DNA from: Diplonema papillatum
Taxonomy: Eukaryota; Euglenozoa; Diplonemea; Diplonemida; Diplonemidae
Direction: 5' to 3'
Length of the DNA: 64,000 nt
Assembly: GCA_030068145.1 (NCBI GenBank)
Contig: JAPJBO010000001.1
Coordinates: 124,001 to 188,000, forward strand
Position 1 is the first letter of the stretch; the number at the start of each line of letters is the position of its first letter. This document shows, piece by piece, positions 18,035-48,675 of this stretch. The notes beneath the pieces were generated by a model. The model saw only the letters and a list, made by a program, of their open reading frames with translations. It was not told the DNA's origin and did no database searches. A program made the position numbers and the translations under genes.

Positions 18035-18041
18035 AAGAACA

Positions 18042-24986: not shown

Positions 24987-25924
24987 TTATCCAGCACTGG
25001 GCAACGGCGCACCCCGTTTGATTTATCGCAGGTGGCGCGCATGCGCCTGTACCAGTGGTCCAATTAGCTAGTCTGTCCTAGCATGAATCAGCCAGCCCTG
25101 GCCATCCGTGGGTCACTTGTTCGACTCTTTCTTGTGGGGGACCGACCCCAAAAGAACTATCTTCGATAGAGACGAACAACATAGTGATCAGGAGACGGCC
25201 GTGACTAGGGTCAACTTGATCGGGTAACGTGTTCTAACTGAGACGAAAGCGACAAGTCGGTGGACTCGTTTTGTGAGCCGGGGTGAAACATATTAGCGAG
25301 CTCGCCTCAAGGCAAGGGCGTGACGATCATTCGCATGCGAATCGAAGGTAGCGGGATTGAAACGACTTTCGGGGCAAACCGCGGAGCTTTCCAGCTCGTA
25401 GACAACTCCACTCCGCCTACGAGAGCTCAAGCCAGCAACCCAGCTTCGTTGCCGCCTTGTTCTATGCAATGGAGATGGAGCTCTGTCGTCCAGCGGGTGG
25501 GCGTGGGGGCGAGAGGGGGTTCGTATTGGGTTCATATTCTTTCGTTCCTTCGCGTTTTCCTTCGTTCTTTTTCCTATTTTTAAGACTTTTCTCCACCCGG
25601 GAGATCCGGAGCACCCCGCGCCTTCTCCTTCGTTTTCTCTTCAACACGGTGGGGCGGCCACCCTTTCTTCTTTCGGTCCTCATCCATTCGCGCATTAAAA
25701 GAAAAGACCCCAGGAAAGCTCAAAAGCACCCTTACCACCCCCTTAACTGAGTACCCCGCTTAAGCAGCAACCGCCCCGGCTGCCCGTCTGCTCGATCCTT
25801 CTCCAGCTTCTTCGAACTTACTTCTCCGCTCTCGTCTGTGTTCCAGCAAGAGGCCGATCCACGATGAATATACACGCATGCGAACGACATGTCATTGCGT
25901 AGCTCGTTCTTGCAGGGGGTTTCG
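24987..25924. other. Stretch with structured-RNA character, no gene
   Basis: Between the 312 bp duplication and the minus-strand 5'-domain rRNA fragment there is no protein gene. The first 400 bases hold several hairpins and the central-domain rRNA-like piece. 25460-25860 is pyrimidine-rich with no recognisable feature. Confidence 0.5.
25183..25370 (+). rRNA. SSU rRNA-like fragment, central domain
   Basis: Motifs in the same order and similar spacing as eukaryotic 18S positions of roughly 830-1010: GTTCTAAC.GAGACG, GACAAGTCGG, GGGGTGAAAC (18S: GAGGTGAAAT), AAGGCAAGGGCG (18S: TTGCCAAGGACG) and TCGAAGGTAGCGGGATTGAA (18S: ACGAAAGTTAGGGGATCGAA). Similarity stops soon after 25370, before the expected AGATACC. 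Upstream (25090-25180) are strong hairpins, such as GGGG-GACCGA-CCCC and CTATC-TTC-GATAG, which suit structured RNA. It is divergent, and about 18 bases shorter than 18S in one interval. This is the weakest of the five rRNA calls. Confidence 0.45.
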
Positions 25925-26211
25925 GCCCGAAGATACGCCTCGCCTCGTCAAAAGCTGATGATAGGGCAGAAGCCTTCGTACTTCCACCGACTTGAAGTCC
26001 TGTGCTATCACTCGATTGACCCGTTTCATCCGCACACCGCTGCTATTGCTAGCGTTGGTTCTTATTTCAGTCTTTTGTCTACCCGACCGCGGTATTAAGG
26101 CAACGGAGTTGAATCGAGTTGGAATCTTCGGACATGTATTAGCAATAGAGTTACCATTGTTATCGTCTGTGTCGTTCGTAGGGGCCATTCCCGGACCGCG
26201 TCGTTTCCATC
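25925..26211 (-). rRNA. SSU rRNA-like fragment, 5' domain
   Basis: On the minus strand the order matches the 18S 5' domain: GATGGAAACGACGCGG, then GGTAACTCTATTGCTAATAC with ATG (18S: GGTAATTCTAGAGCTAATAC ATG), a GTAGACAAAAGACTG piece, GTCAATCGAGTGATAGCACA (18S: CGAATCGCATGGCCTTG region), and CTGCCCTATCATCAGCTTTT (18S: CTGCCCTATCAACTTTCGAT). Spacing between the anchors fits 18S positions of roughly 80-370, with a deletion near the start. It ends near 25925, before the GGTTCGATTCCGGAG block. The other edge adjoins the duplicated 5' ends of the PDZ-like gene. Whether it is transcribed is unknown. Confidence 0.7.
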
Positions 26212-26284
26212 CTTCGCGTTTTCGCGGCCTTGGTCGTAGGCTATCGGCAAGGACTGAATGGCCGCGGCTTGTAGACTCGGACGA

Positions 26285-26879
26285 CGTGCTGCCGTGAGAC
26301 TTGACCGCAGAAAAGGAGCGGTGTGGACTAAAAGCTCCAGATGAGGCAGCTACGTACGGACAGACGGCGCGGTGCACAACGCGGAAGCAGCGAGCTGCGG
26401 AGGTATTCTTGGCACGTCGAACCTTCTCTTTGGGATTCTTCCGCCTCTCGTCCACCGCTGCAGAACCCATCAGGAACATGCGGCAACACAAAAAGCCCAC
26501 CCAGGTGCCATTGGTTGGAGGGGAGGGAAGGGGGCGATGCCCGCTTCTGATCCCACAACCCAGCGTGAAGTGCACTCACGGACGACCCTAGTGGGGCTCA
26601 CGGCAGGTGGACGTTGTACGACGTGCTGCAGTGAGACTTTACCGCAGAAAAGGAGCGGCGTGGACTCAAAGCTCCAGATGAGGTAGAATACGTACGGACA
26701 GACGGCGCGGTGCATAATGCGGAAGCAGCGAGGCTGCGGACGTATTCTTGGCGCGTCGAACCTTCTCTTTGGGATTCTTCCACCTCTCGTCCACCTCTCT
26801 CTCATCACATCAGGAACAGCCGGCTACATACAAAACCCACCCAGGTGCCAACATTGGTTGGGGGGGAGGGAAGGGGGCG
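26285..26879 (+). pseudogene. Decayed tandem copies of the 5' end of the coiled-coil/PDZ gene
   Basis: Two upstream units resemble the promoter region and first 85 codons of the gene at 26880. In the first unit, remains of the coding part (GCAGAAAAGGAGCGG, GCTCCAGATGAGGCAG, CAGACGGCGCGGTGCACAAC) occur at 26300-26390, and a start-site copy (GGGCGATGCCCGCTTCTGAT then CCACAACCCAGCGTGAAGTG) at 26530-26590. The second unit's coding remains are at 26625-26740, followed by the flank that leads into the real ATG. Frames are broken by stops and indels. The unit length is about 330 bases. Confidence 0.85.
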
Positions 26880-28430
26880 ATGGCCGCGTCTGATCCCATA
26901 ACCCAGCGTGAAGTGCACTCACGGACGACCCTAGTGGGGCTCGACGGTCGGGTCATCGAGCGACCCGACGGGAACTACCTGCTGGTGGACGCGTACAACG
27001 TGCTGCAGAGGGACTTCGAAAAGTTAACGGCGGAGAAGGAACGGCTGGACGAAGAATGCGCGGACTTGAAGCGCCAGATGCGGCAGAAGGAGCTGAAGTA
27101 CGAGACAGACGGCGCTGTGCACAACGCGGAAGCAGCGAGTCGGTTGCAGACGCTGGGCGACGAAGTCACGAAGCTCGCGAGCCAGGTCGCGAAGTTGGAG
27201 CAGGAAAACGCTGGGCTGCACGCGACGAGCGAAGTCGTCGGTTCGTTTCGGCTGAGCATCGGCGAGGCCGTGAAGAGGCTGTTCCGCACCGCCGCGGGCG
27301 ACGTGCAAGGGGAACTCGAAGCCGTCGGGAGTGGGCAGTCCGGCGACATGGCGGCGCTGACGGCGGACCCCTTCTTCTACAGCTCGTCGGCCCAGCCGTC
27401 CCTGCACAACGAGCTGAAGCTGCTGCAGCGGGCGAAGGACCGGCTGCTCATCATCCTCACGACTGCGGCGACGTCCCACCGCCAGACCGAAGGCGGCGCG
27501 GCGAAGCTGACGCACGAGTTGCAGGTCGCCTCGCTGTCAGCGCAGCAGCAGCGCGTGTTCGCCGACGAGTCGACCAAGCGGGCGGAGTACGTCTTCGACT
27601 ACCAAGACTCGGTGTGCGAGTTCGCAGCCGTCTTGACCAAAAACGTCGCCTCCTCTTCTTCTTCCCCCTCCGCGCGGCTGCAACCGCACTCGGGCGGCGC
27701 TTCGACCACCCCGGAGGGGAGTCCGCGTGACCAGATCGTGTTCCCGCTGTCGTCGACGCTGAACACGTACGACTCGTTTGCGGACGGACAGCTGTCGTCG
27801 GATCGGCTGGTCAAGCGGGAGTCCAGCAGGGGCGTGAGCACGCCGAAGGGCCACCGGGAGCGGGAGAGCAAGCTGGAGAGCAAGCTGCACCACACGGCGG
27901 GCAAGGCGTCGAAGACGGGGAACCACCCGCAGCCCGCGTTTCGGCAGGAGTCGGGGAACCTGTCGGCGAGCCACAAGCGGAACAGCCGCCCGAAAAAGGG
28001 AGCGAGCGCGCTGCACAACGTGCTCTCGCCGCGGCGGATGATCTCGGGCTCTGCACCGGCGCCGTCGTTCAAAGACATCGAGGCGGACACTTTCGGGCTC
28101 TCGATCGAGGTCGGCGGCAAGGTGGCCGCGTCGCACATAGACGCAATCTGCCCCGGCGACGTTTTGGTCAGCTGCGACGGGAAAGCGATCGCGACGCAGC
28201 AGGACCTTGTCACCATTGCATCGGCGTCCCCCTCGGGCAGCCTCACGTGTCGAGTCCGCCGGAACGGCGTCATGAAAACCGTCGAGGTGAAGTTGAAGCA
28301 GACAGGACCCCCAGAAAAGGCCAACCCGCGCAGCTCAACGACCATACGGAAAAAGGGAACCTCTGGCTCCTCGAAGACCACGAAGGCGGCGAAGGCCTGT
28401 CGTCCATCCAACGCCGCGACTCTCAAGTGA
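26880..28430 (+). CDS. Coiled-coil protein with C-terminal PDZ-like domain
   Basis: Single open frame of 516 residues. ATG 26880 was chosen because the broken upstream copy preserves the same start region and because upstream codons fall in a G-rich leader. Residues about 45-115 are a heptad-type coiled coil (repeated E/K/L: LTAEKERLDEECADLK and LGDEVTKLASQVAKLEQE). Residues 270-400 are Ser/Pro/basic low complexity. Residues about 404-472 look like a PDZ fold: FGLSIEVGGKVAA, HIDAICPGDVLVSCDGKAI and LTCRVRRNGVMKTVEVKL match the carboxylate-loop, 'GD.L...G' and final-strand blocks. The tail is Lys/Ser-rich. PDZ plus coiled coil suggests a scaffold that binds peptide C-termini, possibly cytoskeletal; no specific family was recognised. 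Partial copies of both gene ends lie on both flanks. Confidence 0.8.
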   Translation: MAASDPITQREVHSRTTLVGLDGRVIERPDGNYLLVDAYNVLQRDFEKLTAEKERLDEECADLKRQMRQKELKYETDGAVHNAEAASRLQTLGDEVTKLASQVAKLEQENAGLHATSEVVGSFRLSIGEAVKRLFRTAAGDVQGELEAVGSGQSGDMAALTADPFFYSSSAQPSLHNELKLLQRAKDRLLIILTTAATSHRQTEGGAAKLTHELQVASLSAQQQRVFADESTKRAEYVFDYQDSVCEFAAVLTKNVASSSSSPSARLQPHSGGASTTPEGSPRDQIVFPLSSTLNTYDSFADGQLSSDRLVKRESSRGVSTPKGHRERESKLESKLHHTAGKASKTGNHPQPAFRQESGNLSASHKRNSRPKKGASALHNVLSPRRMISGSAPAPSFKDIEADTFGLSIEVGGKVAASHIDAICPGDVLVSCDGKAIATQQDLVTIASASPSGSLTCRVRRNGVMKTVEVKLKQTGPPEKANPRSSTTIRKKGTSGSSKTTKAAKACRPSNAATLK

Positions 28431-29400
28431 GGAGCTCGGCACCCGTTCGTTCGACACGTTCTCAACGCCCGAAACGAATCCGAGGCGCCCGACTCTTTTG
28501 TGGGATCGGTGGATTATACATCGATCAGGCAGAATACCGAAGGACATTGAGCAAGCAAGCTGGAGAGTATGATCAGCACACTCAACACAAACGAAAGACC
28601 GGCAGTCGTGCCTTTTTTTGCGGCAAAGAGTCCAGGAGCCTGTCGTCAAGCCACAAGTGGAACAGCCGGACGAAAAAAGGCGCGACTGCGCCGGCACAAC
28701 GTGCTCTCCCTTGGCGGCCGATCTCGGGCTCTCGATCAAGGTCAGCGGCAAGGTGGCCGCGTCGCACGTAGACGCAATCTGCCCCGGCGACGGGAAGGCG
28801 GTCGCGACGCAGCAGGACCTTGTCACCATAGCATCGGCATCCCCCTCGGGCAGCCTCACGTGCCGAGTCCGCTGGAACGGCGTCATGAAAGCCGTCGAGG
28901 CGAAGTTGAAGCAGACAGGACCCCCAGAAAAGGCCAACCCGCGCAGTTCAACGACCATACGGAAAAAGGGACCTCTGGCTCCTCGAAGACCACGAAGGTG
29001 GCGAAGGCCGGTCGTCCGTCCAACGCCGCGACTGTCTTGTAAGGAGCCTTCGGCACCCGTTTGTTCGACACCATCTTAACGCCCGAAGCGAATCTGAGGC
29101 GCCCGACTCTCTTGTAGGATCGGTGGATTATACATCGATCAGGCAGAATACCGAAGGGACATCGAGCAAGCAAGTTGGAGAGTATGATCCAGCACACTCA
29201 ACACAAACGAAAGACCGGCAGTCGCGCCTTTTTTGCGTTGCAAAGAGTCCAGGAGCCTGTCGTCGAGCCACAAGCGGAACAGCCGGGCGAAAAAAGGCGC
29301 GACAGCGCCGGCACAACTTGCTCTCCCCTTGGCGGCCGATCTCGGGCTCTCGATCGAGGTTGGCGGGAAGGTGGCCGCTGAATGCGACCGGCAGCTGTCT
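28431..29400 (+). pseudogene. Two decayed copies of the PDZ-gene 3' end
   Basis: Copy 1 (about 28550-29045) covers the last 190 codons. It keeps the PDZ blocks (AICPGDGKAVATQQD, LTCRVRWNGVMKAVE) but has lost DVLVSC, has frameshifts before the PDZ part, and ends with a different frame near its stop. Copy 2 (about 29155-29385) stops inside the PDZ region at GGCGGGAAGGTGGCCGC and runs into family G. Between copies lies a shared 3' flank (GGATCGGTGGATTATACATC, GATCAGGCAGAATACCGAAG) present twice. Confidence 0.88.
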
Positions 29401-30611
29401 GCTTGTTTCATGCATAGACACAAAGATAGCTCAAAGCATCTGCAGAATAACGCGAAAAGCCTCTAGGCAAAAACCCGTTTTCACATTTCTTTACTCAGCC
29501 TGGCCCGTCGAAACCCGGCCGTCCCCTGCGCAAGGAACGTGCACTACAAGCTCACCGACACTCTCCCCACGTCCATTCACTGCCTATAACAACACGTTCC
29601 GAATAACATAGCAGAAAGAGTCTAACGACCGAGTCCGCTCGGAAAACCTTAACCCCTCTCGCAACGTGTGCGGCGTCAGTTGTGACCGGCGAAGCCTCGA
29701 ATGAGAACACCGACGCTCTGTCAGTGACGGGCCATTTTGTTTTGGTCAGACTGGGTCCCTCTGTGCCATCCAGCTTTTGCCAGCCTGAGCTGACCGGTGG
29801 CTAGTCATCTTCGCAGACCAGAAAAATGTCTGCATGTCCGTGGCTGGCAGGGGTTCAAATGCCTCGCCTGGCAGCTGCATTCAAAACAGGCCAGTCGTGT
29901 GCGCGAGTTCGTCCCACGGTTACTTCGTTCGGTTCCCTTTCGTTTCAGTCTTTCCCCTTCTCCCCATCGCTGTGCGTCAAAATCTTCGCTTTCCATCCTT
30001 CCTATCCCTACGCGCAAGCCTAGAACGTTCAAGTTTTATGTTTTTGGGTGGGAGGGGAGAGAAAAGACACCGAGACCAACAGGAAAACTGCCTTGGATCC
30101 CCTTTTCTGCCCAGTCGCTCTTCCTTCACAAACGCCTCCACCATACGCATCAGCGAGGTTCTGTGTCGGACCATCGCTTGGTCTCCCTACCGTCAATCGC
30201 GCATCACACGACTGTGGCGGCATCGAAACCCCGCCCGAAATGCGGCGAAACGAGTCCGTCAGGTTGCGATCAGGCTAACTACAACCGGTGAGGCTGCATC
30301 CCTGGTGACGGCTACTGCTGGCGAAGGACTGCGGTCCAGTGGAGGAGATGCCGGGAACAGGTTGGGATTCGAGGACTGAAAGACACCAGGGGTAAGGGGT
30401 CGAGCGGGGCCAAGAGGTGCAGAGGACAAAGGGGGGAGGGTCCGTGATCACGACCCGAGTTGGCCGCATCAGTTCGCCGAGTGTCTGTGCTTTCCACCCG
30501 CACCGACAATCAGAACCACTCTCGAGCAGGCGGCGGTGGGTCACACATAGCACAAACGACGAGAAAAAAGAAAACTCGCAGCAAACCCCCGCAAACGCAC
30601 AAAAAGAAGCA
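29401..30611. other. Intergenic stretch
   Basis: No gene supported. Family G begins at 29412 directly at the end of the second PDZ-gene copy. The remainder (29500-30600) has no recognised repeat; frames of up to 180 codons on the plus strand (29834-30379) have no domain and poor codon use compared with neighbouring genes. The final 150 bases are the presumed 5' flank of the PW-motif gene. Confidence 0.5.
29412..29490 (+). repeat. Interspersed family G
   Basis: ATAGACACAAAGATAGCTCA, AAGCATCTGCAGAATAACGC, GAAAAGCCTCTAGGCAAA, CCCGTTTTCACATTTCTTT. A near-copy at 51216-51302 lies just upstream of the WW-protein start codon. Confidence 0.8.
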
Positions 30612-31829
30612 ATGGCACAAATGGCGATGCTCTGCGGCCCCGTGGACAACCAGGACACGATGGGGCTCGCGGGGGTGAACAGCCCGGAGAGCAAGAAGCG
30701 GAGCGTCCGCCCGACCGGCGTCGGGAAGGAAGGCGAAACCGCGCCTTGGAACAAGCGCCAGGACCTGCACAAGCGCGGGAAGGTCGAGGTTCGGCGACCG
30801 GCCGCGGGGGGGGGAGCGGAGAAGGCGGTCAGGAAGCCGGTGGCGGGGCCGGCGAGGGAGGCGCGGGCGCCTTGGGACAAGGGGACGCGGGCCGGCGGCG
30901 GCAAGAAGTCGCACCAGGCGATGCCCGAGACGCCGCGGCGGGAGCACCGGACCGGGAAGAAGACGACCGCCGGCGGCGAGGAGGAAGGCAGCGGGCCGAA
31001 GCCGTGGGAGAAGGACCAGGCGGAGACCCACAGCAAGCGGCGGAACGACCCGTTCGCAGCGAGCCCGCAGCGCTCGAAGACGACAGACGTCCTCCTGCAC
31101 TGCGACGGGGAGGAGCAGTGCCCCGCTGAAGGCGGCCGCCGGGTATTCGCCGGGAAGGTGGGCACCTCGTCGCATATGGCGGGTCCCGCGTGCGAGCCGC
31201 AGGAAGGGTTCACGCACGGGTTCATCACGACCGACGGGTACGAGGACCCTTCCGTCAAGAGCGGGAAGCACTTCAACGCCCCGAAGGAGCGCTCGCAGAG
31301 CCCGTGGACCCGGGCGGACCTCGAGTCCGAGCAGAAGAACGGAAAGCACATCGACCGCGACGCGCGGCAGCACGACCGCGCCCAGCACGCCAACCTCCTC
31401 ACGTCCGACGGCCCCGCGGCGAAGACGACCGGGAAGGCCCACGGGCCGCGGCAAGGGTACTCGCAGCTGTGGGGGTTCGCGCAGAACATCCGGCAGAAGG
31501 CGTCGCCCGAGCGGTCGGTCGCCCCGTGGGACAAGGAGAGCGCGTTCGGGGTCAGCCGCGACGCGAAGGTGTTCTTCAAGTCGGCGGTGCCCGCCGCGGC
31601 GGCGGCGCCGGGCCGGACGGCGGCGCCCTGGGAGCGGAGCAACAAGGCCCACAAAACGGGCGTGTCGACGTCGGTGCGGCGGCAGTCGAACCTCGAGCAG
31701 GTGTGGCAGTCCGCTTCGTACCCGCGGCCGGTGCACGCGCCGCCTTCCATCGCCGCGTCCTCCGCCGCCGGCAGCCGCCCCGCCCCGTCTGCGCCGCCGG
31801 CCAGTGCCCGGTCGCTCAGGCACTTCTGA
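30612..31829 (+). CDS. Protein with six PW(D/N/E)K-type motifs, function unknown
   Basis: Open frame of 405 residues from ATG 30612; the GC-rich third positions fit the other genes. It is polar, basic and probably disordered. The visible order is a recurring tryptophan motif: APWNKRQ, APWDKGT, KPWEKDQ, SPWTRAD, APWDKES, APWERSN, spaced 35-90 residues apart. Between them is a more ordered-looking central part (about residues 155-305: VLLHCDGEEQ, HGFITTDGYEDPS, GKHFNAPKERSQ). No signal peptide or membrane segment. I do not recognise the family; repeated short tryptophan motifs often mediate binding to a partner, which is inference only. The final codons (SARSLRHF) and the stop lie in a unit repeated downstream. 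Confidence 0.7.
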   Translation: MAQMAMLCGPVDNQDTMGLAGVNSPESKKRSVRPTGVGKEGETAPWNKRQDLHKRGKVEVRRPAAGGGAEKAVRKPVAGPAREARAPWDKGTRAGGGKKSHQAMPETPRREHRTGKKTTAGGEEEGSGPKPWEKDQAETHSKRRNDPFAASPQRSKTTDVLLHCDGEEQCPAEGGRRVFAGKVGTSSHMAGPACEPQEGFTHGFITTDGYEDPSVKSGKHFNAPKERSQSPWTRADLESEQKNGKHIDRDARQHDRAQHANLLTSDGPAAKTTGKAHGPRQGYSQLWGFAQNIRQKASPERSVAPWDKESAFGVSRDAKVFFKSAVPAAAAAPGRTAAPWERSNKAHKTGVSTSVRRQSNLEQVWQSASYPRPVHAPPSIAASSAAGSRPAPSAPPASARSLRHF

Positions 31830-32530
31830 TGGGGCGGCGCAGCATTGCTCCTTCCGGATTCACGCCATCGCCGCTTGCTGAGTCGCAAATTGCCCGGCGT
31901 TCTTCGTCTTGCCGCGTCGACCAGTGCTCGGTCGCTCAGGCAGTTCTGATGGGCGGCGCACCATTGCTCCTTCCGGATTCACGCCATCGACGCTTGCTAG
32001 GTCACAAATTTCTGGGCATTCTCCTGCTTCCCGTCAGTGTTCAATTGTTCAGGCACGTTTGATGTTTTTCCGGATTCACGGCACTTGAATCGCTGGGCGT
32101 TCCTTCGTCTTGCCTCCTGCCGTCAGCCAGCGCTCGGTCGCTCGGACACTTCTGACGGTGGCGTACAATGTTCCTTCCGGATTCACGCCATTGTCGCTTG
32201 CTGGATTGCAAATTGCGGGGGGTTCTCCGTCAGACTTTGAGATTGTCCGAGAGACTATCTGTGACGAAATAGAAATTGTTTAGCCGGGTGGACGGGACTG
32301 TAGCGTCCTGCGTACGGAATGACAGAGCCTTAACGAAACGGTCGTTCCGACATCCGTCCGCGGGCAGATGCCAGTGCCGCTGTCGACTACGTATTGGGTG
32401 CATGTTTTCCGCGTCTAGCCGGCCAGTGCTCGGTCGCTCAAGCACTTCTGATTTGATTGTGGAAATACCTTCCATTCACGCCATCGAGGCTGGACGGTCG
32501 CAAGTTGCCAGGACTCTCACCATCTTCGGA
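31800..32530 (+). repeat. Decaying tandem copies of the PW-gene 3' end
   Basis: A unit of about 120 bases (GCCAGTGCCCGGTCGCTCAG, GCACTTCTGATGGGGCGGCG, CTCCTTCCGGATTCACGCCA, CTTGCTGAGTCGCAAATTGC) spans the real stop codon and is repeated at about 31918, 32035 (poor), 32128 and 32421. Each copy is progressively more diverged. They extend only the last few codons and 3' flank, so they are noncoding. Confidence 0.85.
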
Positions 32531-33144
32531 ACGACTTTAAAGTCAAGAATGTGGCGTTCCATTCTCTCCAGTAGTAGTCGGCGCCATGCGTGACTGCGAA
32601 CCTGCAGGAGAGACGGTGTCCGTGGCGCCATGCAGTGGAGCAACACTGCTCACCCCTCCGCGGCACCTGGGAAGCTCGCCACGCAAAAAAAGGCGTCTCC
32701 GAATATTTCTTTGTTAGTTTACTGTTTTGTCGCAATCTGTACGACCCTCCCTTACTCCCTGCCCCCCCCCCCCCCCCCCCCAAGCCTCTCTCTATCTCTC
32801 TCACGCAGTACTGTTTCTGTCTAATTATTTCCCTCTCTGAACGAGACAAACGTCAACACATCCACCCTAGCCCTCATGTCCGGTGTTCCTGCGCTATGCG
32901 GGTCGTCAAGGATGCAGTGTGTGAATCGGGATTTGTCTTTCCTCCGTCGCACAGTTCTGGTCTGCTTCAACAGCAAGAGTTGTCATCACGGGCCCGCCCC
33001 GTACCACGGGTGCAGCAGTACTGAGCGTCGCAGCTTGGGATTGCTGCTTCACGAGAAAGGTACAGCGACCTCCCTTGTGACGCGCGGAGCTTTCGTTCTT
33101 ACACGAGCTTGTGCCCTGGGGAAAGGTGCGGCTACCGCTCCACC

Positions 33145-33316
33145 ACGGTGGAGTCTGATCCTTGGAGCTGAAGCTAGAGTTGAAAAGCGGGTGTCAGACC
33201 CGCTGTTCGGGTGCGCATTTCTACACGTTTTTTTTTTTTTGTTGTAGCACACCCGCTTTTCGGGGCGTGACTCGCGTGCGCTTTTTGCTCCAGCTTCTCA
33301 GGCTGGACTCCACCGC
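33145..33316. repeat. Foldback element, family E
   Basis: Ends ACGGTGGAGTCTGATCCTTG-GAGCTGAAGC and GCTCCAGCTTCTCAGG-CTGGACTCCACCG are inverted copies. The centre includes GCGGGTGTCAGACCCGC and a 12-base T run. It belongs with 22875-23000 and 23358-23516. Confidence 0.85.
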
Positions 33317-34599: not shown

Positions 34600-34960
34600 A
34601 CCGACGAGTGCGCAAGGGGCACAAGCCTGAACCGATGTGCGACGGGTATCCGAAATGTCGTTTTCGTACGTGTGAGAGGTTCACTTTTAGCGCGTAGATC
34701 TTCAGCAGTTGAGGTCGGCGAGAGTACCCATACGCATACGGGTTGACCACCGATGTTACCGTAAACAAACCAGCGTGCCCAACGCAGGCATCGTTCGCCG
34801 TGAATGATATAGCATGGAATAACAAGGGATCGATTCTCTCGACTCTTTTTGTTGGTCTCTTAACCCGAGACGGAATCATCAAATCGAAGCTCTTAGCGGT
34901 TCTCTGTTGAGTTTCGTCGAATTCCTGTTGCGTGGGATTGAGGGTGGGCAGCTGGTTCTC
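34600..34960 (+). rRNA. SSU rRNA-like fragment, 530 loop to V4/central domain
   Basis: Anchors occur in 18S order: GGGGCACAAGCCTG (18S: GGGCAAGTCTG), a degraded 530-loop equivalent (GTGCGACGGGTATCC for GTGCCAGCAGCCGCGGTAATTCC), ACTTTTAGCGCGTAGA (18S: AAAAAGCTCGTAGTTG), GTTACCGTAAACAAA with GCAGGCATCG (18S: TTACTTTGAAAAAATTAGAG, then GCAGGC), AGCATGGAATAACAAGG at 34811-34827 (18S: AGCATGGAATAATAGAATAGG), and TTTTTGTTGGTCTCT at 34846-34860 (18S: ATTTTGTTGGTTTCT). Distances between anchors are close to 18S. The badly altered 530 loop, normally invariant, argues against a normally working ribosomal RNA. Confidence 0.72.
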
Positions 34961-36269: not shown

Positions 36270-36282
36270 ATTCATATATAAA
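36270..36282 (+). promoter_or_regulatory. TATA-like box
   Basis: TTCATATATAAAGG lies about 160 bases before the ATG at 36436. A second A/T-rich piece (AAATATAAAAAC) is near 36336. No transcription start is known. Confidence 0.35.
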
Positions 36283-36435
36283 GGTCGCGAGACAACAGGC
36301 GTGACGCACACCGTCGGAAACACAAAAAGGAAAGAAAAATATAAAAACACACCCCCCCCCCCCCCCCCCCGCCCCCGACCTGACCTCCCCCCCCCCCCCC
36401 CCCTTCCCACCAGCAGACCTTCCGCCAGCCAGGAA

Positions 36436-39079
36436 ATGCCGCCGCCGACGCCGCAGAGCACGGAGAAGCGCCACGGGAAAGCGATGGTGCGGGCGCCGCC
36501 CGACAACACGCCCGCGCGCGACCGGAAGTCGAAGGGCTCCGTCCGCGCCTCGCTGGAGCCGGCCCGGGGCCCGGTCCCGAAGAGCGGCGAGCCGAAGTAC
36601 CAGCTGAAGTCGAAGGGCGTCCACATCCCGGAGGACCACATGGCGGGGCCTCTCCGCCTCGGCGACTTCGACGGGGCCGCGGCGTACTGGCGGTACACGT
36701 CTGGCCCCACGCCGAAGGGCAGCAAGCGGTCGATCACCCCGCCCAGCGCGCGGCATGCGTGGAAGCTGAGCGAGATGGAAACGTCGGACAGCGACGCCGA
36801 CCCGGCGCACTACGGCATCCGCGTCCTCGGGTACCGCAAGAAGAAGGACAAAGAAATCCGAAGGGAGCGGAAGGAACGCGAAATGGCCATCCAGCGCAGC
36901 GCGTACGTGTTCTCGACCCCGTACGCCAACAGCACCGAGCCATACATGTCGCCCCCGCACCTGATGTCACGCAGGCCGGTGACACCCTCCCCGTCGAGGG
37001 TGCGGTCCATGTCGGCGGCCAGCCACCAGTTCCTCGGGTCCCTCAGCGACCGTGGCGACGACACGCCCAGGACACGCCGCAACCTCAGCTGCAAGCCGGT
37101 TGAACCCGCAGGGGGTATCTTCGCGAAGCTGGATCAAACGTCGCCGTCCCGCAAGGCGCGGCATCCCATTTGGAGCCCGAACAAGCGGATCGGCGACATA
37201 GTCGCGTCGCCCGAGCGCGAGTTCCTGCCGACGACGTACCGCGAGCGCGGCATGTCGATCCGCCGCGAAGGGTCGCAGGCTCTGAACAAAGGCAGCGGCC
37301 GCGTCCGGCCGTCGGAAAGCCTCCTCAAGGCTTGGAACGTCGCGGATGACGCGCCCATCATCAAGCGATCATTCACCCGCAAGCATGACAGCGTCAGCAA
37401 CATCGCCGCCGTGCCTTGGGGCACAGCCCGCAAGAACAGCATCACTCAGTATGTGGACTCTTGTGTGTGTAATCGTGTGTGTTTGTCTGGTGTGGTGTAT
37501 GCGAAGCACAGGTTTTCGAACGGGGGGTTCAAATCTGGTGCGCAGACGGCCCGCGTTCAGGTGTAGAAGTGTGCGGAAGGCAGCCAATCTGTCAGGAGAA
37601 CTGGCAGTCATCCATCGTTGTGCGTGAAATAACATCTTCACGTGCTCATCTTTCTCGTCTTCGTTCTGTGTGTAAGTGTTCAGTGCAAGCGAGGAAAATT
37701 GCTTCTGCCCTTCTATCTTTAAACGACGCAAGTTCAACGTATTTCCCCGTTTCTCAAAGTCGCTCAATGCATCAGCGCTGGGTGGGGACTACTCAGACCC
37801 TCAGTGGGGACTACTCAGACCCTCAGTGGGGACTACTCAGACCCTCAGTGGGGACTACTCAGACCCTCAGTGGGGACTACTCAGACCCTCAGTGGGGACT
37901 ACTCAGACCCTCAGTGGGGACTACTCAGACCCTCAGTGGGGACTACTCAGACCCCAAGTCGGGAGAACCCCCCGGAACCGGCCGAGTTTTGAGACGAAAC
38001 AGCGAAACGGGTCACCCGAGAGCTACCGATTGGCTGTGGGATAGAGCTTGGGAGAGGGAAGCTCGTTCTTGGCAACAAGTTCAGCGCCCGAATCCAAGCA
38101 ATGTTTCTCAGCTAGAGGAAGCAAAAGTCGTAACAAGGTTGCTGTACTCCGGATATCGAGACCGAATGCGGTGTGGCTGTTGGGTACGGTGCGCGCACTA
38201 AACAACAGCACTAGAAAAAGAGAGCGAGCTTTAAAAGCGGCACGCACCTACGTGCACTACCTAAATGCGCACACCTACTTACTGTACCGCAAGAAGTACC
38301 CTTTTCGACGATGGTCACCCGGAGATTAAAAACCCCGGATCATCCTACCCCGGTGAAAACACTTCGATTCAGCCGTTACCCACTTTAGCCCTATTCCGAC
38401 GGGTGGCAGGGTCGACATGTGCATGGGCATGCCCACCGATACTGGGTCGATTTTCTAACCGTCATAAGTGACGAATTCTTGGCCTCCGAGAGCAGCAATG
38501 GAATGATACGTCACGAATCGTTCCATTCCATACTTCGTGAGTTTTTTTTTTGTGTTAACAATGCATTGTTGGTACTAAAAATTAGTAGTTGGCAGCGTAC
38601 TAAAAGCAACTCACCAAATCAGGTGAAAAGCCGCTAGTGCGCACAAACAAATGACACCCATGCAATGTGTGAGGAAACTGAACCGCCCAAGTAGGACCTT
38701 CTGATCATGATCATTTGCCAAATTTGCCACCTGAAACCACGTCCAGGATTTGGGCTCAGGGTAGGTGCGGTCAACGAAAACGGTTTTGGCACCAGGGGAA
38801 GGTAACCCCGATTAAACGAGACGCAGACGTCCGGCTCGTCGGATTAAAACACGAACACACACCGCACACAGATTCCGCCGAAAGACCTCTTTCGACAAAG
38901 TGGAGCTCAAGAAGCCGCTCCGGGGCCGCTCCCACCAATCGCCGAACTTCTCGACGGCGTCGCTGTGTTCCCTCGGCTACGACTCGGGCCCGGACACGCC
39001 ACGCAGCGGGAAGAGGGTGTTTCGCACCCCGTCGCAGAGCAGCCCGTGGGCGCATGCAAACACCGCGCAGCACAGCTGA
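36436..39079 (+). CDS. Basic, Pro/Ser/Arg-rich protein of unknown function, two exons
   Basis: Exon 1 is 36436-37448 (donor CACTCA|GTATGT) and exon 2 is 38872-39079 (acceptor CACACAG|ATT; stop TGA 39077). The two-base overhang CA joins A to make Gln, and the sum is 407 codons, giving 406 residues. A start at 36301 would add a poly-proline leader read from poly-C DNA and is less likely. The protein is basic and mostly low complexity, with an acidic patch SDSDADP (about residue 115) followed by a charged helix KKKDKEIRRERKEREM. Recurring motifs TPxSxR/SPSR (TPSPSRVRS, TSPSRKAR, TPRSGKR) resemble kinase or microtubule-binding sites, but no domain is recognised. The 1423 bp intron contains a 22 bp minisatellite and the 3'-end SSU rRNA-like fragment. 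Confidence 0.75.
37782..37955 (+). repeat. Minisatellite, 22 bp x8
   Basis: About eight tandem units of GTGGGGACTACTCAGACCCT plus CA. The units are essentially identical, so the array is young or is kept uniform. It lies inside the intron, 55 bases before the rRNA-like fragment. Confidence 0.92.
38010..38146 (+). rRNA. SSU rRNA-like fragment, helix 44 to near the 3' end
   Basis: GCTACCGATTGGCTGTGG at 38022-38039 matches the start of helix 44 in eukaryotic 18S (CTACCGATTGAATGG type). GAATCCAAGCAATGTTT and GCTAGAGGAAGC follow at the spacing of the returning strand (18S: TTTAGAGGAACTAAAAG). AAAAGTCGTAACAAGGTT at 38123-38140, followed by GCTGTA, matches the near-universal 3' block (18S: AAAAGTCGTAACAAGGTTTCCGTA). 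The final helix 45 (GGTGAACCTGCGGAAGGATCA) is not present; CTCCGGATATC follows instead. The piece is on the sense strand of an intron of the basic-protein gene, so it would be transcribed with the pre-mRNA. Confidence 0.8.
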
Positions 39080-40332: not shown

Positions 40333-40408
40333 TGCTGAACCGTATCAATCTTGTACCAAACTCCTCAGGTGGTTCGGGGAGATTGGTACAGATTGTTACG
40401 GTTCAGCA
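40333..40408. repeat. Long hairpin, about 31 bp arms
   Basis: TGCTGAACCGTATCAATCTT then GTACCAAACTCC pairs with GGAGATTGGTACAGATTGTT then ACGGTTCAGCA. There are about three mismatches or bulges, and the loop is TCAGGTGGTTCGG. It would be a stable RNA stem of pre-miRNA size if transcribed. Confidence 0.85.
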
Positions 40409-40454
40409 TTTGTGCGTTTGTGTGGTTGAACATTTTTTCAGAATACGCCATACC

Positions 40455-40485
40455 ATTTGCTTGTCTGCGCAGCAGACAAGCAAAT
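40455..40485. repeat. Perfect 14 bp hairpin
   Basis: ATTTGCTTGTCTGC and GCAGACAAGCAAAT are exact inverted copies separated by GCA. It lies 46 bases after the longer hairpin. Confidence 0.9.
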
Positions 40486-41444
40486 AAAGCAAGTGGCCGG
40501 TTTCATTGCACAGTGACAACGGGTGCCCGTTGCCCTGCTGCTGACTCCGCAATGCCTGGCTATGTTTGTGAAGGAATCGCGCTGGCCACCACGCGGCTTC
40601 GCGGGGCGGCGTAGAGGGAGGAAAAGTAAGCCTGCTCAAATAAAGAAAGATTGTATGTCAACCGCGACCGATCGCCATGGGCACGTGAAAGTCTCAGAGA
40701 TATCTCTGGCGCCCGCGAGGCAAGGCCGAAGGTACAGGCTCGGTGGTTAGCCGTCGGGGTGGCCCTTCGCCCACCCCCCCCCGCCCCGACCACTGAGAAG
40801 ACTGATTCGCACAATCGGTGATGATTGCTGTACCCCACGAATGGACACGCAAGGTCGTGGCCCTCCGACCGACCGTTTTTTCGCATTTCAAGATCAGACC
40901 GACGGCAGAATTTCGCGTCCCAGGGCAGTCGTAGCCGTGAGGGCCTCGCGCCAGGACCGACCGCATTTTGAACGAAAGGTGCCCCACCGGCGTTTTTTGT
41001 GTTGCATAAGCACCTGCTTTGTAGGAAATACTTGAGGAGGCTGCCAGCTGCAAAAGATCAAGGATGTAAATGTGCTGTAGCCCACACGAAACACAGGTGA
41101 ATCTGGGTTCAGGCGGGCGAAGCGTTCAACAAAAAAGACCCACTTTGTAGTTGGATTGTTTCTCCCCTCTAGCCTCTTTCGAAGCAAGCACAAGGCAGCC
41201 CCTCGAGTATTTTATGGTAAGAAGCTTGCTGGTCTGTATCAAAAAGCGTCGGATGGCAGCGTGCTGCGATAAAGCACTTGGAACAGGGTTTTCGCACCTA
41301 CGCACAAACAAAACCTACGCAGTCCCGCGGAAACGGGCGAGTGTACACCAGCTCGCTAAGGGTCATGTACGTGGACCATTCTCGGCTAGTACCTCGAATT
41401 GCCGCATTCTTCGATTAAAACGACACCCACGCACTTCTTTTCAG

Positions 41445-41610
41445 TGCCAGACAGCGTGTTGGGGTGGTCGATCAGAATGCCTAACCTGAACATGACTTAT
41501 AGAGTATAGTAAGGGGTGACGTCGAAAAGTATTTTATTAGTGCAAAGGGGAGGGGGGGAGGAGGGGGTTGGCATCGTCTCATATACAAGTGGGAAATGAT
41601 CAACCGGCAC
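41445..41610 (+). repeat. Family C copy interrupted by an insertion
   Basis: The left half (CAGCGTGTTGGGGTGGTCGA...CCTAACCTGAACATGAC) and right half (ACAAGTGGGAAATGATCAAC, CGGCACGCACAA) are normally about 15 bases apart in other copies. Here about 80 bases intervene (about 41504-41586), including AGGGGTGACGTCGAAAAGTA, a G-rich run and GGCATCGTCTCATATA. The end of the insert is the inverse of the repeat at 4808-4925, so it is a nested insertion. Confidence 0.75.
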
Positions 41611-41639
41611 GCACAACCAAACGAAGCGCCCGTCTTCTT

Positions 41640-42010
41640 TTTGAAGTGGCACCTGCTTGAAGGAGATACTCGAGGAAGCCGCCAGTTGCAAAATCTCAAG
41701 CCCACACGAAACACAGGTAACCCTGCGTTTAGTGCGGGCGTTGTCGGACGCTTGTCGGCAACGAACTTGTGCTTGTTTCGACGGAGGCTAGGGAGGAGAA
41801 AACAATCCGACTGCTAAGTGGGTCTTGTTTGTTGAAACACGCTTATACCCGCCACTAAACCCAGATTTACCTGTGTTTCGTGTGGGCTACAGCACATTTA
41901 CCCTTGAGATTGGAATAATTGTTGAGCCAGTGAGTACCACACTATCGCACCTTTGAGATTTCGCAACTGGCAGTCTCCTCAAGTATTTTTGCACAGCGGG
42001 TGCTTGTACA
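41640..42010. repeat. Inverted pair of family A copies
   Basis: The left copy (+) runs from GGCACCTGCTTGAAGGAGAT to about 41760. The right copy (-) runs from about 41822 to GCACAGCGGGTGCTTGTACA. The arms share ACTCGAGGAAGCCGCCAGTT / AACTGGCAGTCTCCTCAAGT and CCCACACGAAACACAGGTAA / TTTACCTGTGTTTCGTGTGG. Together they could form a long stem. Confidence 0.8.
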
Positions 42011-44956
42011 TAAGAAAAATAATGGAGTACAACTACGCATTTCGAAAAACGCAGGTCTTACGGCCAACGGTCGTGGTGGAGCACCTTGTGCAAATCACTT
42101 TCTGTGTCGCATATCTCCTCAGCCACAGTTCATTTTTATTTTTACTCAAGTAGTCAAGCTTGCTCCGACCACTGCACCCTCTTCCGACACTCGCTAGCCG
42201 TCGACGCTCATGACGGCAGCCCCATCCTGAAGTGCAAATACTGCCGACGCGTCACTGCTGCTGCGCTCGGATTGGCGCCGCTCAAGCGGCCACCTTAAGT
42301 CACTCGTTTGTTTGTAAAGGTTGCTTCGTTCTTCTCCCTGACTTGTTCCCGGATTAGGATGGCACATACTACAACTCAAGTAGTACTGTAGTAGTGCGTT
42401 GCTCAGGGTAGTCGAAGGCCTGACAATCACACTTACTGCTACAATTTACCTACTGTTGTACGTCTGAACAATTCCGGAACGACGGCTGCACATGATGAAG
42501 TCCAACGAAAACAGCCACAAAAGGGCCATCACAGCAACCTCCCCTGAGCATTAAAATTCGGATTTCTTACGCGAAGAACGAGAAACCTTTGCCTATTCGT
42601 AGCGGCAATGCATTTTGCCCATTTTTCTGGAGAGAGTGCACAACACTGACAGCGTGTTTGGGAAGAGATTAACTGAGTGACCATGTTCACTCAGGAACTC
42701 CCCCGGGCACGTACAAACAGATCGTGTTGTTCAATTGGAGCTGATTGCCCGTTGACTCAAATCTTTGGAATTGTTTCCTCTATTGCTTTGTACCACAACC
42801 AATCTTAGTTGACAGACGGAAAAGCGGTTTTTTTTTTTTGAAGAAAGACAGTCTAAAGAAACCACGCATCCGATCCTTCGGATGTCGAGAACTTCGCACG
42901 CTGGAGTACAATCTACCCCCCTCCAACGCCCCTCCCCAAACATGCATGAGAGGCAGTGACCTGCCTAAACATTAAACTAAGATTTTCCCCCCAGCGTGTC
43001 CTTCATTTTCGCACCGCTCCTGGCGGTGGTGCGGAATATTGTCTTTTGAAAGTACACAACTAGCGACGGGATTTGTTGACTAACCCCCTACTTACGTTTT
43101 CTGCTGCTCACGAAGCGTGTGGGAGTCGGCAGTCCGAGTGTCTCGAAAAACAGGACCGACCCCCCCCTCCTCCTTCCTCGAAAAAAGGCGAATGGTAAGA
43201 AGGCTCTCTATTTTCTAACCTTGCAGAGCTGCGAAGGAAACTATTCCAACGGTGCGTCAGAGTTTCTGTCGGCCGAGCATCTCTGCTCTTCTCAGGGCTT
43301 GTGGCGCTTCCCCCGGAATTTAGAATTGTCCCAAAATCAGCGCGGACGTTGGCGAGACGAAGAGTTGCTGGAGGCGGCTTCGAATACTCTCGACATTCTC
43401 CCTCTCGAGTCCCGATTTTCCGGCATGTCCGTTCAGGCCGCCCGCGAGCAGGCTCAGCGTCCACCAGAACCTACACTGACCACATCCCGCACCGGAGCAC
43501 AATCTTGCGGGTTGCGAACGTGTATTGTGACGGCAAAAAGACGCAGACCGCCATGTTTTGGTGGCTGTTCAAAGCACACCGCACCGCCGGCCAACCGATT
43601 TTTTTTTAAATAGTACATCTGTACTGACGGGAACATTTCCGGAACAACGGTTGCACATGAAAGAGAAAACGAAGCCAACGAAAAAGTGCTATCACAGGAA
43701 AACCCCCCCCCAGAGAGGTTTATACCTGTACACGCGAAGAACAAGAAACTTTTGCCTTATCATTTTCATCACCTGTGGTCAGTTGATGCTGATCATCCGT
43801 TGCTTCGTTTATCAGTGCAAGCCCCAACTCCGGAAATGTTCTTTTTTTTGAAGAAACGTTCTGCAGGACATACACGAGGGCCGCCATTTGCAAGTCTCAT
43901 GCGATCGTCATCAGCATGGGGGTGACGGCAGTCCAGCTCTTGGTTGTTACCGATCTCACCCGCCTTCATGCGCGCGTTGTATGAGGCGTGGGCAACAGAG
44001 GACAACACGTGACACCTTCAGAACCATGCGGTACTGAAGAACGCATTTGAAATATCACTGCACGAGAAAGACGCGAGATAGAAGTATCTCGTGCCATCCT
44101 CATTCGCGTGCACATGCCTCTAAAGCCCTAGGCATTCTGTGTGCGGCTTCCCAGCAGTGTGTCGACCGAACTCGCAAAAGGAATTCCGACGAAGCAGTCT
44201 CGTCTGTTTGGGGGAACGCCACGGACGAGAAACGCTTACTTCGCGCGCGAAAGAAAACCCGCGTCCCTTGCCCTCAAAACCAGCACCAAGAACAACGGCC
44301 CCTTGCCTTCGGAGCGGCTGACACGGTTAACGCCATTCATTCCAGGGCGCACCTCGGCTGGAAAACGGAGTGAAGTTTTTTGCTCTAAAATTGTACTGCA
44401 ACCAAGTATCTCGCGTGCCATGCGAGGCGAGAAGGGGACGACTGTTGGGGAAGGGTGGGAAAGGGGGTGCGTATAGTAAAATATGCTGAAGAATTGCCAG
44501 GCAGCACACCCGCAAAAAAAAAAAGGAAAAAAAGTAAACTGACAGGGATTTAAGGACGTCGGCTGCGCAAAAGCACACCGGTTTGTCGAGAGCAAAGGAC
44601 GCCTTGTCGTGCTGCACGCACGCTTCCAACGGAGCATCGACTCTGCATGCATGCCTACGCACCCTAACACAGCAAGCCGCATCGAAGCGAATGGCAAGAG
44701 TGGTCGGCGTAAGCACACCGCTGCCTCACGCTTAAAAGCGGACGTCACACCCGCTTTTTGAACTAGTACATTGGGCGCAATTTTTTGGGTGGTCAGGCAC
44801 ACCTGCGTTTTTTCTCCAGCTTCAGTACCCGTGTAGACGTAGTCGCTGTCTTTCCAGCGAGAAATAGGATCTTCACAAGCTGCGGTTATCGGGATGCATA
44901 ATACTATACAACCCCATACAGTAGCCACCCACGGGGTGCAATCATGTATTTGTCAT

Positions 44957-45109
44957 ATAAAGGGTCGAATAACAACACCTGTGTTATTGTTCGATTTGTC
45001 AAATACTAAAAGAAGTTCCGGGTAGCCGAACAGTAACAGGATCAAATAACGGTACTGTTCTTGGCAACCAGACGTGTGTCAAATAACTGTTATTCGACCC
45101 CCCCTTTAA
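44957..45109. repeat. Foldback (MITE-like) element
   Basis: The left end is ATAAAGGGTCGAATAACA and the right end is TGTTATTCGACCCCCCCTTTA. Inside are further inverted pieces: AACACCTGTGTTATTGTTCG and TCAAATAACGGTACTGTT. No coding content. Confidence 0.8.
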
Positions 45110-47913
45110 CAAGTATCCTGATTTCTCTCTGGCCCACCCGCAAAAGGCCGACGGTAAGCGCCTGGCTTGAAGACCCAAATATGCATAATATTATTATTAC
45201 CTGTAACCCCCTTCGCTTCGTCCATGTTCGGCATAGTTCCTGCTCTCTCTTTTTGTATTCTCTCCCCCCTCTCTCTTTTTTTTTTCTCCACATTCGCCGC
45301 CACGGCGAGAAATTGAGAAACGACCACTTTGTTTCGATAGTAGTGAGCAGCGGGAATGGTCGGCTGGAACATTTGATCTTGTGCCGCTCCCGAACACGGG
45401 CAGAAACTCGTCACTCGCTACCAGAACACGAAGATTGCAACCGTCCACACCACCCGCCAGCGACTGTGCCACATGTGCACAATGTCGAACTCCAGCGTCT
45501 GTGGTAGGTGCACGCGTGCCACAGCCGTGTCTTAAACGTGAAAGACGCCGGGTAACTCTGTCAAAAGGACAATACCACCAACGCGACAAGAGCTGAGTGT
45601 CCGGCCCCTCGTCAGCACCCTCAACAGCTGCGACGCGCACGCGCATTGCACAATGCCGGGCTAGCGCCCGGCAAGAGCAAACATGCCACAGCAACCGTAG
45701 GTTAGACGAGGGGCATCGTTCACTCTTGTCAGAGGATAATAAAAAAAATATTTACCAATTAACGCATTGAGAGCCCGAAACTTAGTCGGAAACAGCGGAT
45801 CCGGCGAGTGGAGAGCTAGCAAAATGTTGCTGCGCACGGCCAAAGACGTTGTGGCGAGTGTCGAGAAGAAGAACTGGGATGCGAACACGCAGGCTGATGA
45901 TGAGCGGCAGCTCTCTCCGTTCCGGGAAGGTCGTCCTCGTTTCGGGACACGGGTTTGCGGCCATCAAGGGCCGAGACTCACACCATTCCTTCATTTTTCT
46001 AGGCCCTCCCCTTGGGGCTCAAGTTATCAAGTTTCCTGCTTCGGCGGTGCGCTGGAAGCACGCCCCTTTCCAGCGCCCGTCCGAGTCCCGTTGTAGACGC
46101 AAAAAATGTTTCTCTCCAAAAACAGCTCCCCAGTCCTTCCCTTGTCTTTTCTTCTTTAGTAGTACTGTTGTACTGAAGAGAACATCTTCCGAAACAGGCG
46201 GCTGCACATGAGAAAGCGAAACGAAACCAACGACGAAAAGTGCACTTCAAAGAGTGCTATTACAGAAGAAACATTCACTCAGAGAGGTGAAACGTTTGTA
46301 CATGCGAAGGACAAGATCTTATTGCCCCATCTCCTTTATCAGTGCAAGACCCTACCCCCCGGAGGTGTTCTCTGTTGTTCCCCTACAAAAACTCTCTCTA
46401 ACTCTAAAAACGTGTCATATGCCCCTCGCTTCGCCCCGCGTTGTCCTTTCCTTCTTGCGAATAAGAGAACGCTTCGAACACGAAACCAATCGAGGGACTC
46501 TGTTTCTCTCCGCACCGCTAAGGCGTGACTACCCCTCGCAGAGGACCTCCTGCACGGGTGGTCCTGGCTGTGACGAGCTACGAACAGCCGCCTGACAAAC
46601 CAGACTCGCACCGCTGACCTGTCTGCGGACACTCAGGTTCCTGGCTTAAAGGACCGAAACACGGCGCAGACGGGAACAGTGCGGTGTTGAGCGCATATCC
46701 ATTCCAAGCACGTTGCAATCCCAGGGGGCTGCTCGGGATCTAAACAGGCCAACCCCCCTTGGCTCGTCTGTCCGATGTTCTCTCAAGAGTCTCATCGCAA
46801 AGGAGGCAGTGAGACGCGCGTATTAGAATCGCCAGCTCCCGAGCTCTAAAATACTATCTGCGGCGGAAATGGAACTGACTCTCTGCGCACCCCATCCGAC
46901 GAGAAGTTCCGCGTGGATCGTAACTCCTCCGAGGAAGTTCAGATTTGTTCGGTTCGGACGGAGAAAGCCCGTTGCGGCAATGCCACCTAAATCGGGCGTC
47001 AATGCTCGGGGAGAGGCCGGCGAGTTGCCCATTGGCGCCCATCGAACCATTTATGAGCCGGTGCACCCCCTGCTTGTCGACGGGTGCTTGGATTGGTGGT
47101 TCCTGAGAAACGGCTTGTTTTCGATTGACCACATCGAAGGAATGATCGCAAATACGCATCTTGCTCAGTAGCAACATTGGATCAATGCAGGGAGGAGAAA
47201 TACTCTCGGCTCGTGCTTTCACCGACAGAAATAGCAATACGACATAGATACGGATATTCAACCTGCGCAAACCATAAGCAGCACCAGAAATTCGCGAAAA
47301 GAGACGGTCCTACGGTACCAAGCAGACAGTCACCTACTGCGGCACCATACTGAGGCTAAGTAAGGTGGATAATGGCCGAAACCACGGATGACCAACAACC
47401 AAGGTACCCACCGATCCTCTTACCTCGTGTAACCACCACTCTTACGACACTCAGGACACAAAGGACATCTTCCCATATGGACGAAGGTCACCCGGAGACT
47501 TTAAAACACCAGAGTTTCAAGCGAACTTTCACTCTAGAAAAGTAGACACTCAGAACAAGAAGAACCCCGGACTCTAAAGCAGAAGATCCCGGCGCATGGG
47601 CCCATGCCTGGCGCGATCGCTGGAGGCAGAGCTGGAACTGGAACAGTATGCAAGTTCCTTGTGTCAACAATGCCTATCTAATCTTATCTAAAAATTAGTA
47701 CATGGAACTTACCAAAGCAGGTGAGCTCCGTGCACCTACAAAAGATGGCCATACGAAAATCTTAAGCTCTTGCAACCCTCGACAGGCGATGGTATCACCC
47801 GCGAAAACCGCAGCAGACTCTTCTGAAAGACAACGAGGAAACGATCCTCCGCGAAATTTACACCACTGTATGTCATTTTCTGCCAGCTCGTCCTAACCCT
47901 TCAGCGCGCAGTT

Positions 47914-47995
47914 CTGCCAGTGTAGTACTTCAGCCTGCCAGTGTAGTACTTCAGCCTGCCAGTGTAGTACTTCAGCCTGCCAGTGTAGTACTTCA
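47914..47995 (+). repeat. Minisatellite, 21 bp x4
   Basis: Four tandem copies of CTGCCAGTGTAGTACTTCAG with one extra base per unit; the last unit diverges after TTCAA. Confidence 0.88.
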
Positions 47996-48144
47996 ACGTG
48001 CATCGTCTTGTTGAACGCGTTCACAAAGGTAAAAATGAAGCCTCAGGACAAAAATGTTAGCGAACCACGGCATGCTGGAAAGCTCGTTTGTTCATCGGGA
48101 ATGCTACACCCGAGGCGTCTGAGGACCACCACCTGCTTTTTTCT

Positions 48145-48275
48145 AACAATCTTGCGGGATTGCCCTTCCGTGTATGGTGCAGGCTAAAATACATGTAAGC
48201 AGCGTGTTTTGGTGGCTGTTCAGAATTCGTATCCTGAAAATGACAGGGCAAATCCAAGTGGGAAGACGATCAACC
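48145..48275 (+). repeat. Interspersed family C
   Basis: AACAATCTTGCGGGATTGCC, GTGTATGGTGCAGGCTAAAA, GTAAGCAGCGTGTTTTGGTG, CAAGTGGGAAGACGATCAAC. It precedes the rRNA-like block by about 100 bases. Confidence 0.75.
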
Positions 48276-48389
48276 CACGCGCCCGTCTTCTCGCTGTGTC
48301 TGGGTTAACCCGGGCTTCACCCACCGGTGGTTTCTGTGCTGTACTGGGCGCGGGTACTTCGTTCGATGTTTGCTAGTTGACGTCAGCAC

Positions 48390-48675
48390 AGGTTACATCC
48401 CAGGTGCCGACTGCTTCAAACCGCGAGGGCCTCAATCGATCCTTCGATTAGACCTCATACTGCGCGAGACCCCCTGTTTTCCGAGAACACGCTTTGTTGT
48501 CGTCATGTTACCGAGCTTCGTTGTACACCCACGTTCATCCGAAACCGACGCGCTGCCCCAACCAATGTGCCGACGACGGACAGAAGGCGCAAGTCATCAA
48601 CTAGCACCAATTACGTCCCTGCCATTCGTTCACCCCGCCCGTTGTTGCTACCGATTGGCTGTGGAATAGCGTTAG
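48390..48675 (+). rRNA. SSU rRNA-like fragment, end of 3' domain into helix 44
   Basis: The strongest part is 48587-48664: GCGCAAGTCATCAACTAGCA then CCAATTACGTCCCTGCC (18S: GCGCAAGTCATCAGCTTGCG then TTGATTACGTCCCTGCC), TTCACCCCGCCCGTTGTTGC (18S: TACACACCGCCCGTCGCTAC) and TACCGATTGGCTGTGG. Upstream, CAGCACAGGTTACATCCCAG near 48384-48403 resembles AACAGGTCTGTGATGCCCTT, and ACCAATGTGC...GACGGACAGAAG fits the interval before GCGCAAG. The universal ACACACCGCCCG core is changed to TCACCCCGCCCG. The block ends about 90 bases before an EF-hand exon. A 26-of-29 match to the start of the 38010 fragment shows that the two overlap at helix 44. Confidence 0.82.

Follow-up and report, generated by a model that had tools for sequence, protein, structure and literature searches.

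The window analysed here, a continuous stretch of 64 kb, is eukaryotic DNA of nuclear type, with a G+C content of 50–67% across its 2-kb blocks. A Pfam scan took in 30 of the 259 open reading frames (ORFs) of at least 100 amino acids, and the strong matches among these 30 were all on the plus strand: 2-oxoacid dehydrogenase E2, EF-hand/voltage-gated channel, NIF-type phosphatase, DnaJ, WW and EF-hand. A dihydrolipoamide acyltransferase (E2) gene occupied positions 17991–19445 and ran on to about 19900. Judged by its sequence, this gene appears to have GT-AG introns, and its catalytic domain seems to resume in a different frame past an apparent GT-AG intron about 0.5 kb long. No tRNA was found within the 64-kb window, no Rfam family reached its cut-off when the whole window was searched with cmscan, and the dinoflagellate spliced leader motif was absent from the window at up to three mismatches.

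The window was rich in repeats. Inverted repeats of 76–122 nt, resembling MITEs or foldback elements, were located at 22882–22992, 40333–40408 and 14552–14673, with folds of −67.0, −47.7 and −40.8 kcal/mol, respectively; the first two were nearly perfect. Dispersed repeat families of about 140–190 nt and 76–91% identity comprised the pairs 33540–33728/47357–47541 and 50095–50263/50732–50899, which had about 54 nt in common, and two families of three copies, 14677–14825/22418–22568/48136–48280 and 7468–7649/23079–23236/46552–46721. A 320-nt direct repeat (126–445 and 24667–24986; 99.4% identity, spacing 24.5 kb) is probably a recent duplication. Segments at 26281–26947 and 28082–29378 were in tandem duplication at about 90% identity, and an ORF amid them gave weak coiled-coil and PDZ matches.

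Pieces of small subunit (SSU, 18S) rRNA were sought with two yardsticks, yeast 18S and eukaryotic rDNA contigs filed in viral or bacterial records. The yeast query proved identical to L005. The nhmmer profile was built from seven 18S sequences, two of them identical and some partial. In a strict scan, every 300-nt window on both strands was locally aligned to four reference 18S genes, and two full sets of dinucleotide-shuffled windows served as the control (maximum score 102). A lenient scan used gentler penalties and one shuffled set (maximum 241). Five loci exceeded all control windows of the strict scan: piece E at window 48401 (plus strand; strict 220, lenient 271), piece F at 37901/38001 (plus; 177 and 243), piece C at 34601 (plus; 145 and 264), piece G at 62901 (minus; 133 and 227) and piece A at 25901 (minus; 110 and 240). 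Two of the five, A (240) and G (227), lay below the lenient control maximum of 241. With the nhmmer profile, the reversed window gave no match at E ≤ 20.

The first-pass annotation had described SSU pieces scattered in scrambled order on both strands, and nhmmer and the strict scan bore this out. Four of its five blocks were recovered, though two proved much shorter than annotated. The 5′-domain block at 25925–26211 on the minus strand corresponded to piece A (25933–26177, minus strand; yeast 130–334), which scored 110 against a control maximum of 102 and was matched by the profile at 26164–25946 (minus strand, E 1.1e-4) and by yeast 18S alone at 26164–26124 (minus strand, E 1.1). The helix 44 block at 38010–38146 likewise held as piece F (38022–38146, plus strand; yeast 1648–1776), comprising helix 44 plus the strand that follows it as far as GTAACAAGGTT; its strict score was 177, with nhmmer matches at 38023–38146 for the profile (E 1.2e-8) and at 38089–38146 for yeast alone (E 0.0023). 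The block at 34600–34960, said to run from the 530 loop to V4, shrank to piece C (34749–34917, plus strand; yeast 707–896), covering the end of V4 into the central domain. Piece C was found by nhmmer with yeast 18S alone (34744–34865, E 1.1e-4) and was not reported by the seven-sequence profile. The 530-loop part, at 34600–34700, was rejected because the strict alignment begins only at 34749.

The block claimed at 48390–48675 was similarly reduced to piece E (48582–48669, plus strand; yeast 1583–1668), which runs from the helix 43 region of the 3′ domain into the start of helix 44. Strict alignment placed 48582–48661 (yeast 1583–1662), and the final eight bases, to 48669, belong to E only through a segment shared with F; the remainder of the block did not stand. 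The nhmmer matches to E were at 48583–48661 for the profile (E 7.5e-12) and 48582–48662 for yeast alone (E 3e-9). A copy of a dispersed repeat (48136–48280) stops about 300 bases ahead of E, and a perfect tandem array of a 22-nt unit (37782–37954, 7.9 copies) lies directly upstream of F. Outside the range of the first-pass annotation, piece G (63037–63142, minus strand; yeast 1529–1621) was a second copy from the 3′ domain, overlapping E in rRNA coordinates. G was not reported by nhmmer with either query, and its significance rests on the strict scan and a blastn match with E 0.012.

A weaker piece, B (47079–47202, plus strand; yeast 359–477), carried the CCTGAGAAACGGCT and ACCACATC-AAGGAA motifs, separated by a 12-nt insert inside a conserved stretch. 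It was matched by the profile at 47100–47202 (E 0.01) and by yeast alone at 47097–47175 (E 0.45), and was not among the 26 best windows of the strict scan. On these alignments, B is a probable SSU piece.

Homology to parts of 18S (RF01960) was thus present in five pieces by nhmmer and the strict scan. The check with the Rfam SSU models proposed in the first-pass annotation, run on the window, gave no match: with cmscan, no SSU family reached its gathering score anywhere in the window (RF01960: 0 matches), and none appeared at E ≤ 10 in 24000–50000 or 47900–48900. Four pieces were also compared with stretches of Escherichia coli 16S rRNA. Maximum scores against eukaryotic 18S were 220 (E), 177 (F), 110 (A) and 133 (G), versus at most 72, 80, 63 and 52, respectively, against the bacterial stretches. 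Among the four compared, E, F, A and G are therefore of eukaryotic rather than bacterial type. Viral contigs scanned for words from the window's pieces yielded nothing.

The five significant pieces covered 643 of 1800 nt of the 18S (35.7%), rising to 762 of 1800 (42.3%) when B was added as the sixth, so the earlier estimate of over half was too high. In 18S coordinates G overlapped E and E overlapped F, by 60 nt in all. The pieces in the window did not make up the whole molecule once (36–42% covered, 60 nt redundant), and the 530 loop and yeast 896–1529 were in no significant piece. When pieces of the same lengths were placed at random, equal or greater coverage was reached in 31% (five pieces) or 17% (six pieces) of 20,000 trials. 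Since random placement so often covers as much, non-redundant tiling, earlier taken to favour fragmentation, does not speak for a gene in fragments; overlaps occur, in any case, in two pairs of neighbours.

No piece of large subunit (LSU) rRNA rose above the control in a search of low power, where the best window scored 327 against 335 in the lenient scan and 117 against 133 in the strict scan. In simulations with 120 trials for each decay level and molecule, a 125-nt piece decayed by 20–25% was detected in 28% of cases for LSU and 79–88% for SSU. LSU is the longer molecule; corrected for this low power, about three LSU detections would be expected, and finding none had a probability of about 0.04. 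The absence of LSU is weak evidence for an SSU-specific source. Within 80 nt of the pieces there were no flanking duplications except one 9-nt match around C, which leaves the mechanism of insertion unmarked.

Decay was gauged at columns invariant among reference 18S genes. Leave-one-out identity of the references was 0.938 (L007), 0.923 (L003), 0.924 (L006) and 0.849 (L004), the last two being partial genes; the partial L001 (0.651, 154 gaps among 522 invariant columns) was left out of the yardstick. Pieces A, C, E and G had identities of 0.73–0.79 and B of 0.71, figures that local alignment flatters. The counts were 79/100 for A, 53/73 for C, 40/52 for E, 47/60 for G and 59/83 (71%) for B. 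F alone, with 32 of 36 columns kept, was within the range of real genes. Near-universal sites were altered in E (GTTCACCCCGCCCGTT for GTACACACCGCCCGTC), and G had an 11-nt insertion within a conserved stretch. An attempt to place the pieces on a whole 18S alignment with MAFFT was discarded; it assigned several to the wrong parts of the molecule and gave identities of 0.30–0.59 at invariant sites.

Base pairing was tested by comparing the Rfam pairs kept with those left when an equal number of substitutions was redistributed at random. The pairs kept were 16/32 in A (P 0.19–0.42), 9/21 canonical in B (P 0.64–0.70), 6/8 in helix 43 of E (P 0.26–0.49) and 12/17 in G (P 0.06–0.16), the last being at most weakly better than random substitution. 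Helix 8 of A, with 6/7 pairs kept (P 0.02–0.07) and an unremarkable folding energy (P 0.35–0.45), is a possible exception to unconstrained pairing. The folds of A, C, E and G were indistinguishable from those of shuffled sequences (z −1.03 to 0.44), and z spanned −1.03 to 0.61 over the six stretches other than F, which took in A, C, E, G and the central block 25183–25370. Set against simulated decay, the fold of C was suggestive over one span (P 0.03–0.155) and ordinary over a longer one (P 0.165–0.82). Truncated homology with relaxed constraint was accordingly seen in A, B, C, E and G (in C by invariant columns only) and not in F. Most pieces behave as decayed copies, because invariant sites were lost and pairing was mostly no better than expected from random substitution. 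The suggestion in the first-pass annotation that altered invariant sites favour decay thus holds for A, C, E and G, which lost 21–27% of such sites, but not for F, whose helix 44 is complete.

A covariance model of helix 44 made from six references (R1) aligned F over 38016–38146 with 57.6 bits (E 2.6e-12). Sequence alone gave 37 bits, and structure contributed the other 20.6. The next match of R1 in the window was the inverted repeat at 14673–14552 (20.4 bits, E 0.0049). The predicted fold of 38022–38135 had a free energy of −47.3 kcal/mol (z −4.78), equalled in none of 200 shuffles, and formed a single long hairpin with regular internal loops in the model. Compared with simulated decay of five reference helix 44s to the same distance (200 simulations each), F had P values of 0 to 0.005, and it was the only piece with a helix 44 fold. 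A pair count on the sequence alignment (17/35 pairs, P 0.24–0.41) contradicts the fold; we ascribe this count to the variable middle being aligned out of register, since R1 aligns F end to end. As modelled, F is a complete, foldable and structurally intact helix 44, from which we infer a recent departure from a working 18S gene. Its differences from known 18S genes would have arisen within working rRNA, with little decay since.

The end of E and the start of F were identical at 22 of 23 nt (48647–48669 and 38022–38044). This was the longest word common to the ends of different pieces, the others being 9–10 nt. Had E decayed at 23% throughout, the probability of at most one mismatch in 23 would be 0.02. 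Either decay passed over this stretch of E, or the segment was recently copied. An alignment of E and F joined together kept 31/51 pairs (P 0.03–0.06).

These pieces, homologous to 18S, out of order, on both strands and, in most cases, short of invariant sites, with one intact helix 44 among them, are probably fragments of SSU rDNA (or rRNA) that differ in age and lie in noncoding DNA, for the most part decayed pseudogene fragments. Pieces of about 90–245 nt would have entered noncoding sequence as copies, on separate occasions and in varying orientations, and then been left to mutate, serving no ribosomal function. The source would be the organism's own rDNA or its rRNA. The pieces may have come in separately, probably captured as filler when double-strand breaks were repaired, and F (38022–38146) would be the youngest arrival. 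Against this reading stand the intact F, the agreement of E and F at 22/23 nt, helix 8 of A, the one suggestive span of C, the lack of LSU pieces and the lack of flanking duplication. Some of the same features would suit a single ancient 18S copy, or a short rDNA array, that landed here and was torn apart by inversions, duplications and repeat insertions: only SSU pieces are present, clustered within about 38 kb, a 23-nt junction segment is common to E and F, and dispersed repeats are numerous in the window, several of their families being about 140–190 nt long. We nevertheless consider this history unlikely, as the order and strands of the pieces would require several rearrangements, F is far better preserved than the others, and one region is present twice, as the differing copies G and E.

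A functional SSU rRNA whose separate, scattered modules assemble by base pairing is a far weaker candidate. F holds a complete, compensated helix 44, the beginning of helix 44 in E could by its sequence pair with the 3′ strand of F, and the joined alignment had P 0.03–0.06. However, near-universal sites of E are changed, the pieces are redundant over 60 nt, at most 42% of the 18S is covered, with core regions missing (530 loop, yeast 896–1529), and that coverage is no better than random placement. The specific form in which a cytosolic SSU rRNA is split into scrambled modules, helix 44 being its own module and the other pieces fast-evolving modules or dead copies, is just as improbable; the 23-nt segment of E and F would in that case serve as a signal for joining or be left over from shuffled modules. 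Chance similarity is the least credible of all and is refuted for E, F, C and A by nhmmer and the strict scan together. The missing Rfam match, the chance-level scores of 25183–25370 and the 530-loop stretch, and the two of five pieces under the lenient control maximum point towards chance, but five pieces outscored everything in the two full shuffled sets of the strict scan, and E-values reached 7.5e-12.

Nuclear rDNA pseudogene fragments are dispersed, truncated copies of rRNA genes. The pieces described here resemble them in being partial and unordered, on both strands and in noncoding surroundings, with invariant sites lost; they differ in being short and, as far as found, SSU only, with one helix 44 piece almost undecayed. 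Among the matches listed in a literature search, no title described scattered 18S relics of this sort. In Chlamydomonas mitochondria, the order of the rRNA genes is scrambled. Their ribosome is built from RNA fragments, according to PMC8660880. Those rRNAs are organellar, whereas the pieces tested here match eukaryotic 18S and not bacterial 16S. Cytosolic rRNA in pieces is a likeness to Euglena gracilis, with an LSU rRNA in 14 pieces (PMC7672448), and to kinetoplastids, with one in 6 (PMC9082867). In these two papers, the pieces arise by removing extra transcribed spacers from one operon, and it is the LSU that is cut and not the SSU; the pieces in the window are SSU, scrambled and mostly decayed. 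Were the modular reading true, the cytosolic rRNA with a scrambled order would be an SSU molecule; those described as fragmented in PMC7672448 and PMC9082867 are LSU. If the pieces are ordinary relics, they caution that dispersed stretches resembling 18S, when met in an assembled eukaryotic genome, can be mistaken for a fragmented rRNA, and that a single well-folded block is insufficient to decide the question.

Two further stretches were considered and not counted. The block at 25183–25370 on the plus strand, previously assigned to the SSU central domain, was rejected as being at chance level: it had no nhmmer match, its best strict alignment (25183–25263) scored 85, and it was outside the 40 best lenient and 26 best strict windows. 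A candidate at about 44579–44890 on the plus strand, corresponding to helices 12–18 (about yeast 440–617 in the strict alignment), scored 254 against 241 in the lenient scan and 86 against 102 in the strict scan. It aligned well to one of the four references (230 versus 119–135), and may be a further, more decayed SSU stretch.
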